Positions 32,566 through 34,754 of a DNA stretch of 64,000 nucleotides are shown piece by piece; the stretch's first letter is position 1; every line of letters starts with the position of its first letter. The stretch spans positions 124,001 to 188,000 of the forward strand of contig CAJTDN010000007.1 in NCBI GenBank assembly GCA_910574865.1. Reading direction: 5' to 3'. The notes beneath the pieces were generated by a model, which worked only from the letters and a program-made list of their open reading frames with translations, had not been told where the DNA came from and did no database searches. Source of the DNA: Lachnospiraceae bacterium (GTDB lineage: Bacteria; Bacillota; Clostridia; Lachnospirales; Lachnospiraceae). The position numbers and the translations under genes were made by a program.

Positions 32566-32669
32566 GTTCGTCTGTTGAAGGCGGCAAACGGCGATGGCTT
32601 TCTTCCCGTTCCGTGCGCAGGCGGGAAAGAAGAGATTAAAATATATCAATGAATCTGATTAAATTTACC

Positions 32670-32700
32670 ACTAGATTAATTGCGCCGTATGTGCTAGTAT
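32670..32700 (+). promoter_or_regulatory. leuA promoter region with ACTAG...CTAGT inverted repeat
   Basis: ACTAG (32670-32674) and CTAGT (32694-32698) are inverted copies; they overlap a possible promoter TAGATT (32672-32677), 17 bases, TAGTAT (32695-32700). The rnf promoter at 49515-49545 has the same ACTAGATT...CTAGTA layout. No T-box or attenuator was seen. Confidence 0.4.
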
Positions 32701-32753
32701 AGGAAAGGATAAAATACGACAACCGAATTGATAAAATATAAGGAGATGCAATC

Positions 32754-34754
32754 ATGAAAAACTTTGAAAAGTATAAAAGAGCCTATTTTATGCCACCCGA
32801 GCCATGTTACGACTGGGTCAGGAAGGACTATATCAACAAGCCGCCCATCTGGTGCAGCGTGGATTTGCGGGACGGGAACCAGGCACTGATCGAGCCGATG
32901 AGCCTGGAAGAGAAGGTGGAGTTTTTCAAGTTGCTCGTGTCCGTCGGATTCAAGGAAATCGAGGTCGGCTTCCCGGCCGCTTCGGAGACCGAGTACCAGT
33001 TCATGCGCACCTTGATTGAGCAGGACATGATACCGGACGACGTGACGGTGCAGGTGCTGACACAGGCCCGTGAGCACATCATCAAGAAGACGTTCGAGGC
33101 GGTAAAAGGAGCCCCACATGCGGTTATACATGTATACAATTCCACGTCCGTCGCCCAGCGCGAGCAGGTGTTCAAGAAAGATAAGGAGCAGGTGAAGCAA
33201 ATCGCCATCGACGGGGCGAAGCTGTTAAAGGAGCTGGCCGAGCAAACCGAGGGGAATTTCACGTTCCAGTACAGCCCCGAGAGCTTTCCGGGAACCGAGG
33301 TAGAGTACGCGCTCGACGTGTGCAACGCCGTGCTGGAAATATGGAAGCCGACGGCGGACCAAAAGGCCATCATCAACCTGCCGACCACCGTGGAAATCGC
33401 CATGCCGCACGTGTTCGCCAGCCAGGTGGAATATTTCAACAAGCATTTGTTATATCGTGACAACGTAATCCTCTGCCTGCACCCGCACAATGACCGCGGT
33501 TCGGGCGTCAGCGACGCGGAGCTTGGCATTTTGGCCGGGGCGGACCGCATCGAGGGGACATTGTTCGGGAACGGCGAGCGCACGGGCAACGTGGACGTCA
33601 TCACGCTGGCAATGAACATGTTCTCACATGGCGTGGACCCGGGGTTGGATTTTTCCAACATGACGGAAATCTGCGAGGTCTACGAGAGGCTGACCCGCAT
33701 GAAGGTTTCCCCGCGCCAGCCTTATGGGGGCGAGCTGGTGTTTACCGCGTTCTCTGGTTCCCACCAGGACGCGATTGCCAAGGGAATGGCCTGGCGGGAG
33801 GAAGGAAAGAGCGAGAAATGGACGGTTCCATATTTGCCGATTGATCCCAAGGACGTGGGACGGCGTTATGATTCGGACGTGATTCGCATCAACAGCCAGT
33901 CCGGCAAGGGCGGCGTGAACTATATTCTGAAGCAGAATTATGGCATCAGCCTTCCGGAAAAAATGCGCGAGGAGGTCGGCTACCTGGTCAAGGACGTGTC
34001 TGACAAGGCACACAAGGAATTGAGCCCGGAACTGGTGTACCAGATTTTCGAGGACCATTACATTACCGCCAAGTCGGTGTTTTCGATTGACGAGTGCCAT
34101 TTCAAACAAGAGGACGGCATCGTGGCCTCGGCCACGGTAAGCCACGCGGGCAACCGGCACGTCATCACGGGAGTCGGGAACGGCCGCCTGGACGCGGTCA
34201 GCAACGCCCTGAAGCATTATTTCGACATCAGCTACGAACTGGCGGTATATGAGGAGCATTCTTTGACGCGCGGGTCGTCTTCCAAGGCGGTGGCCTATGT
34301 GGGCGTGAACTGCAACCAGAAGAAGTACTGGGGCGTCGGCATTGACGCGGACATCATCAAGGCTTCCATCGCGGCGCTCGAGGTGGCGGTGAACAAGATT
34401 GACGAGGTGAAAGGCGCGGCCCTCGGCAAGGACGCGCGGCTTTTGGAAATCACGAATTATATCCACGAACATTACAAGACGGTGACGCTCGACGAGCTCT
34501 CGGAAAAGTTCTTCCTTTCCAAGCCATACATCTCCAAATATATCAAGGAGAAATCCGGCATGACGTTCGGAGACATCGTGCAGAAGATCCGCCTGAAAAA
34601 GGCACGGGCGATGTTAAAGAGCGGAAACGCCAGCGTGGAGAGCATTTCCGACTCGGTCGGATACCAGAACGTGGAGCATTTTAACCGGCTGTTCAAGCGG
34701 GCTTACCAGATGACCCCGATACAGTTTCGGAATCAGGAAAATAAAAGGAACTGA
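32754..34754 (+). CDS. leuA: 2-isopropylmalate synthase fused to an AraC-type DNA-binding domain
   Basis: LeuA makes 2-isopropylmalate from 2-oxoisovalerate and acetyl-CoA, the first step of leucine synthesis. Residues about 30-320 are the TIM barrel ([43 protein letters not shown]), and about 430-560 the leucine-sensing regulatory domain. The frame then continues without a break into a typical AraC family double helix-turn-helix (about 566-663: [20 protein letters not shown] and [20 protein letters not shown]...MTPIQFR). The usual protein ends near 560, so this is a true C-terminal fusion in the sequence given. AAGGAG precedes the ATG. A chemoreceptor gene follows after 29 bp. Confidence 0.93.

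Follow-up and report, generated by a model that had tools for sequence, protein, structure and literature searches.

A 2-isopropylmalate synthase fused to an AraC-type DNA-binding domain probably controls its own production in many Lachnospiraceae gut bacteria

The leuA-HTH locus and its fused protein

The window, the 64,000-nucleotide stretch of Lachnospiraceae bacterium DNA that we analyzed, contains a 2-isopropylmalate synthase gene (leuA) that carries a DNA-binding domain behind the enzyme. A single frame runs from ATG to stop with zero internal stops, and Pfam places the domains of its product, LeuA-HTH, in the order HMGL-like, IPMS_D2, LeuA_dimer and HTH_18/HTH_AraC (Table 1). The first-pass annotation had described a frame that continues past LeuA into a complete AraC-type double helix-turn-helix (HTH), and the domain searches bear this out: the HTH_18 match scores 69 bits against a cut-off of 33.6 and spans positions 1 to 80 of the 80 in the profile, with HTH_AraC matched as well at residues 621 to 660. 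Its placement of the end of the enzyme at about residue 560 has to be corrected, as the enzyme part stops near residue 548. The linker from the conserved AVNK to the HTH is 11 residues long in 138 of the 141 proteins matching our test pattern.

Table 1. Features of the leuA-HTH locus, in window coordinates.
Feature	Position	Strand	Details and evidence
Operator O1, two direct half-sites (distal 32635-32650, proximal 32656-32672)	32633..32672	+	51.5 bits; 0 mismatches to the pattern
Extended -10 box TGCTAGTAT	32692..32700	+	fixed distance from O1; TGn
Operator O2, second and weaker copy, overlapping the expected start and the ribosome-binding site	32706..32745	+	second-best site of the window, -4.4 bits
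leuA-HTH fusion gene, 666 aa	32754..34754	+	open frame, Pfam, NCBIfam, conservation
Catalytic domain HMGL-like, residues 32-308	32847..33677	+	Pfam, 230 bits
Linker domain IPMS_D2, residues 327-393	33732..33932	+	Pfam
LeuA_dimer, leucine feedback domain, residues 423-549	34020..34400	+	Pfam, 88 bits; pocket-equivalent residues kept
11-residue linker, residues 549-559	34398..34430	+	linker-length comparison
AraC-type double HTH, residues 560-661 (HTH_18 582-661)	34431..34736	+	Pfam, tail conservation, seven model helices

By its score against the NCBIfam model PRK03739 (807 bits, cut-off 455), the protein belongs to the 2-isopropylmalate synthase family, and it narrowly misses the yeast-type equivalog TIGR00970 (673.6 of 697.4). 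LeuA domains alone precede the HTH, with no separate, non-enzymatic ligand domain of the AraC type detected by Pfam. Domains and residues together place an intact enzyme and a DNA-binding domain in one chain, the arrangement by which trigger enzymes are recognized. The gene stands outside any leucine operon; upstream are genes for a metallophosphatase, scpA, scpB and a D-Ala-D-Ala carboxypeptidase, and downstream a chemotaxis receptor is followed by an oxaloacetate-decarboxylase-like set.

Distribution and conservation of the fusion

The first-pass annotation had proposed a search of related genomes for the fusion, and had held that its absence from all close relatives would speak against it. 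It is present in 10 of the 12 genomes of the window's genus (in one of the ten, G010, the gene ends with its contig at residue 639), and therefore the fusion is no chance join. The remaining two are G007, a 69% complete genome in which the HTH alone lies at a contig end, and G004, whose unfused LeuA is 64% identical, clusters with the unfused genes of other genomes and has a T-box leader. A 6S RNA (L012:3763-3941, minus strand) directly precedes this T-box.

Across the family, LeuA was detected at threshold in 270 of the 299 Lachnospiraceae genomes sampled. The HTH is present in 70 of 109 fetched leuA loci, two of them as split genes, so that together with the window's own genome at least 71 of the 299 genomes carry the fusion. 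It was found in none of 80 re-searched genomes with a more distant LeuA (mostly about 50% identity), which were drawn from approximately 121 with a LeuA match but no listed place. A class-wide search returned a LeuA match in 42 of 148 genomes, the fused ones being family members plus G384. This genome, from outside the family, has a fused leuA with an operator beside a second, unfused LeuA (L289), pointing to gene transfer.

When we scanned with the HTH part, a LeuA frame was present in 79 of the best 80 named loci, and in the last one a contig end truncates the locus. The matches listed include Coprococcus comes, Faecalicatena, Mediterraneibacter, Schaedlerella, Hespellia and Claveliimonas bilis. 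An identical LeuA-HTH junction recurs in many genera, including on the complete chromosome of Claveliimonas bilis (L261). At three loci (L069, L098 and L279) leuA terminates at the linker and a different frame carries on into the HTH, with the operator present in all three; the frame change falls at a run of G in L279 and at a run of A in L098. These splits may reflect assembly error, decay or separate translation.

Both halves of the protein look functional by their conservation. D37, E176, H243, H245 and N273, which we take to be catalytic residues of LeuA, are invariant in 142 fused proteins (the three split ones included) and in 40 unfused proteins. We assembled the leucine pocket from what we presume to be the residue list of Mycobacterium tuberculosis LeuA, with numbering that follows a sequence alignment. 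On that list, the equivalents of G531, N532, G533, Y554 and A567 are invariant in the 142 fused proteins and that of L535 is kept in 139; at A536, V551, A558 and A565 the letter differs from M. tuberculosis, in fused and unfused proteins alike. The feedback pocket thus appears to be retained in LeuA-HTH, and feedback inhibition itself is predicted.

The HTH half is under purifying selection. Its dN/dS ranges from 0.019 to 0.065 in the 5 of 10 pairs for which it was computable, and that of the enzyme part from 0.012 to 0.070 in 7 of 10, the remaining pairs in each case having zero or saturated dS. In 41 tails, the recognition regions rank among the best conserved parts. An AlphaFold model of the protein is of modest confidence overall (mean pLDDT 74.6, pTM 0.51, very low at residues 320 to 386); it includes seven HTH helices, with a confidence of 74 to 87 in 10-residue blocks. 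The top structural matches to the model are M. tuberculosis LeuA chains, and no HTH protein appears among the best 50. By sequence, the HTH part matches AraC-type structures such as Rns, MarA, SoxS and AraC.

The operator pair at the leuA promoter

Across genera, fused leuA genes are preceded by a common motif with the consensus aATTAAAATAnATCAAtnAAAaTGATTAAATTTgtCACT, which is built of two direct half-sites within 40 bp. Its copy in the window, O1, is the top-scoring site of the entire 64 kb; the weaker copy, O2, ranks second, ahead of a third site at -19.0 bits, and was recovered by a whole-genome search as well. We compiled a set of 97 distinct operators, which were admitted with at most two mismatches and hence were chosen to resemble O1 (14 of 111 were left out as duplicates or too short). 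A second copy lies 73 to 74 bp downstream of O1 in 68 of the 97 and was not found at that distance in 29. Over all 97, the mean of the best score for this copy is 8.1 bits, compared to -23.8 in shuffles.

The promoter keeps a constant relation to this motif. In 90 of the 97 operators a single spacing separates the -10 box from O1, and in 95 the box is extended (TGn); the best -35 match reaches 2 to 4 of 6 positions (mean 3.0 versus 2.6 in shuffles; n = 91). We infer a leuA transcription start at about 32707. Given the extended -10 and the poor -35, the leuA promoter probably needs an activator, and the tandem half-sites that adjoin it are an arrangement typical of AraC/XylS regulators. In three Dorea/Coprococcus-like loci (L022, L029 and L038) the proximal half-site lies, as judged by eye, within a terminator-like inverted repeat followed by a T run, and therefore the operator may double there as the terminator of the upstream gene.

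The operator occurs exclusively where the HTH is fused or directly adjacent. Among 131 leuA loci, the operator core is present at 59 of the 80 fused loci that were scored (a further one, L026, could not be) and at none of the 50 unfused ones. A T-box pattern occurs at 10 of the 81 fused loci compared with 31 of the 50 unfused; Fisher tests give 2e-19 and 4e-9, respectively, uncorrected for relatedness. The core falls below the set threshold in the other 21 fused loci. With a half-site model, and skipping loci with less than 300 nt upstream, 31 of 40 fused loci withheld from training exceed 99% of shuffles, as do 70 of 79 fused loci overall and 0 of 40 unfused ones; 9 of the 79 have no half-site above threshold. 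Under the same length rule, the core is found in 73 of 77 loci of the named set.

The comparison is less decisive when relatedness is taken into account. The HTH label switches 7 times on the tree, with 3 of these switches on well-supported branches, and an independent-pairs test was not significant (3 pairs, about 2.3 in the same direction, median p 0.5). The operator core is missing from all six unfused leuA genes that branch within fused groups, and four of the six have the T-box pattern. One further locus, L041, combines a degenerate HTH (low score, altered recognition region) with a T-box pattern and no operator. On this comparative evidence, a matching operator accompanies LeuA-HTH at most of the fused loci scored.

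T-box counts rest on the pattern TGGNACCGC; an Rfam search detected a T-box at all 6 loci checked that carry the pattern and at none of the 5 checked that lack it. In five of the T-boxes, the specifier, at what we take to be its position, is CUC (4) or CUG (1), both leucine codons. Since 10 of 81 fused loci keep the T-box pattern, the HTH did not simply replace the T-box. At six loci (L037, L046, L066, L072, L083 and L088) the operator lies upstream of the T-box pattern, and therefore both controls would act in series.

Genome-wide searches point to leuA as the main target. In 11 of 12 genomes, a 17-base version of the motif matches perfectly at leuA and nowhere else. The exception is G243, whose leuA site deviates from it at 2 positions; sites elsewhere with 1 or 2 mismatches number five, in four of the 12 genomes. 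O1 is the sole perfect match in the window's own genome. A short core is perfect at leuA alone in 7 of 8 genomes. Its one-mismatch sites elsewhere number 3 to 15 per genome, well above a reversed-pattern control in G002 and G243, and are only partly annotated; there may therefore be weak further targets. A relaxed search of the own genome returned O1 and O2 together with a single site in front of gdhA, a gene of the glutamate dehydrogenase family. This gdhA half-site is strong in 2 of 10 genus genomes, the own genome (G000) and G008 (L318 and L319, at about position 1501), and weak or absent in the other 8. Elsewhere in the own genome we noted a Clostridiales-1 RNA (RF01699, 115 bits; L194:8786-8948, minus strand, contig C7 at about 296285-296447).

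The first-pass annotation had proposed that the protein controls transcription, which the evidence above narrows to probable control of leuA itself; the leuB and leuC promoters lack the site in most genomes tested. No full operator was found in 28 leuB or leuC/leuD loci of 4 to 13 kb, where the best site per locus scored -9 to -40 bits against at least 26 at leuA; the single exception, at 0.8 bits (L311:4160), falls in an asparaginase frame. Half-sites exceeding the 99% shuffle level precede leuB in 2 of 30 fused genomes, namely G293 (15.5 and 12.5 bits) and G028 (14.6), and in 0 of 10 unfused ones; for leuC the count is 1 of 12 loci (G293, 14.4). These counts exclude L205 and L352, which were unscorable, for leuB, and L303, not found, for leuC. 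The half-site-like elements stand at the leuB and leuC promoters of G293 (L204, 5051, and L309, 2052, both minus strand) and at leuB of G028 (L362). No T-box above the gathering score was detected at leuB-ilvD-ilvB or leuCD in the fused genomes searched, and the one T-box found at such an operon is in the unfused G282. In most genomes, and in the genus of the window, the operator would thus be a leuA element; it may have spread in a few, possibly to leuB and leuC in G293 and to leuB in G028.

Proposed mechanism, alternatives and known systems

We consider it likely that LeuA-HTH is a self-regulating trigger enzyme, one that reads leucine through its feedback domain and has its own promoter as its main target. 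The idea of the first-pass annotation that enzyme and DNA-binding regulator are united in a single protein is well supported by the intact enzyme, the selection on the HTH and the conserved operator that accompanies the HTH at leuA. Binding of the fused HTH to O1/O2-type operators is predicted with high confidence. That leucine is the switch for binding, as the kept pocket and the alternation with leucine T-box leaders suggest, seems to us the better guess, held with some reservation. The direction of the switch, activation at low leucine and shut-off at high, is a tentative preference.

In the proposed mechanism the synthase, a homodimer by family, would bear two AraC-type modules on short linkers behind its leucine feedback domains, and the dimer would contact the two direct half-sites of O1. 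O1 would lie at about -74 to -35, where an AraC-type activator touches RNA polymerase, and O2, some seven helical turns downstream over the start, would allow shut-off by direct block or by O1-O2 bridging. Leucine in the feedback domain would inhibit catalysis and also move the DNA-binding modules. Most likely, the leucine-free protein would activate from O1, and the leucine-bound protein would not, or would repress through O2. The circuit would stand in for, or be layered on, the leucine T-box leader of relatives. Taken jointly, these steps would let one leucine-binding event set both catalytic rate and promoter activity, replacing or stacked in series with the T-box leader across the family and spreading to leuB/leuC in G293 and G028, a reading that we offer as conjecture.

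Activation from O1 with shut-off through O2 fits the geometry best, and its main rival is plain autorepression, in which the protein, bound at both operators with leucine as its co-repressor, would block or loop the promoter, and O1 would have no activating role. End-product repression is usual for biosynthetic genes, and such a repressor would suit both the recurrent O1-O2 spacing and an O2 that, in the window, covers the expected transcription start together with the ribosome-binding site. Autorepression is harder to reconcile with an O2 that is weaker than O1 and was not found at that distance in 29 operators, and the fixed distance from O1 to the -10, together with the poor -35, suggests activation instead; we therefore regard pure autorepression as rather unlikely. 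More improbable is a wider regulon headed by LeuA-HTH, with leuB-ilvDB, leuCD and gdhA as members and leuA merely the best conserved target. The half-sites at leuB/leuC in G293, at leuB in G028 and at gdhA in G000 and G008 are what such a regulon would leave, but we rejected it given their rarity and the lack of a full operator at any of these genes.

Genomes with the fusion encode many AraC-type regulators, and one of these could in principle own the operator, leaving the fused HTH with a different DNA role or none. The restriction of the operator to loci with a fused or adjacent HTH, and the purifying selection on that HTH, make this a very improbable account. The three loci with a frame break at the linker are what an assembly artefact or a read-through pseudogene would look like, but a junction that recurs in many genera and on a complete chromosome refutes that explanation, to which we assign practically no weight.

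If the preferred reading of a self-regulating enzyme is true, enzyme allostery and gene control are joined in one chain in common gut bacteria. As fused, split, degenerate and unfused leuA genes exist side by side, the family would offer a natural case of exchange between RNA and protein sensors, and with one gene and one promoter the link between allostery and transcription would be easy to test. We found no description of a LeuA-HTH fusion in the open-access journal literature searched, also when searching on trigger enzymes in general.

AraC/XylS regulators carry a double HTH of about 100 residues, and AraC itself binds direct half-sites, I1-I2, just upstream of its promoter, with a second operator. 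LeuA-HTH and its promoter share this layout, yet the sensor half of the protein is a whole enzyme with a feedback domain rather than an AraC-type ligand domain. Ada is likewise enzymatic, a DNA methyltransferase that has an AraC-type HTH and switches on its own gene, but it serves DNA repair and differs in domain order and signal. The top structural match is M. tuberculosis LeuA (1sr9, 3fig), an enzyme of the same type that aligns with 509 bits over residues 26 to 518 and whose solved chain ends where the HTH begins in LeuA-HTH. In that enzyme, leucine is reported to bind the regulatory domain and inhibit (PMC10464499).

The T-box leader (RF00230) gives leuA of relatives the leucine-type control that we propose for LeuA-HTH; it is an RNA sensor of uncharged tRNA, whereas LeuA-HTH would be a protein sensor acting at initiation. 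Trigger enzymes offer the nearest functional parallel. Published examples are PutA and also BirA, NadR, PepA and PyrH, enzymes that carry or have gained DNA binding, as predicted for LeuA-HTH, and Escherichia coli PutA is reported to bind at its own gene region alone, putA/putP (PMC8249747). They are described there neither as AraC-type nor as leucine enzymes (PMC8249747). LeuA-HTH differs from them by its AraC double HTH, which follows the allosteric domain in an enzyme committed to biosynthesis, and by a site geometry that suggests activation. Trigger enzymes, AraC regulators and T-box-controlled leuA are thus already known, and what is new here is the likely target of LeuA-HTH, the operator pair at its own promoter.
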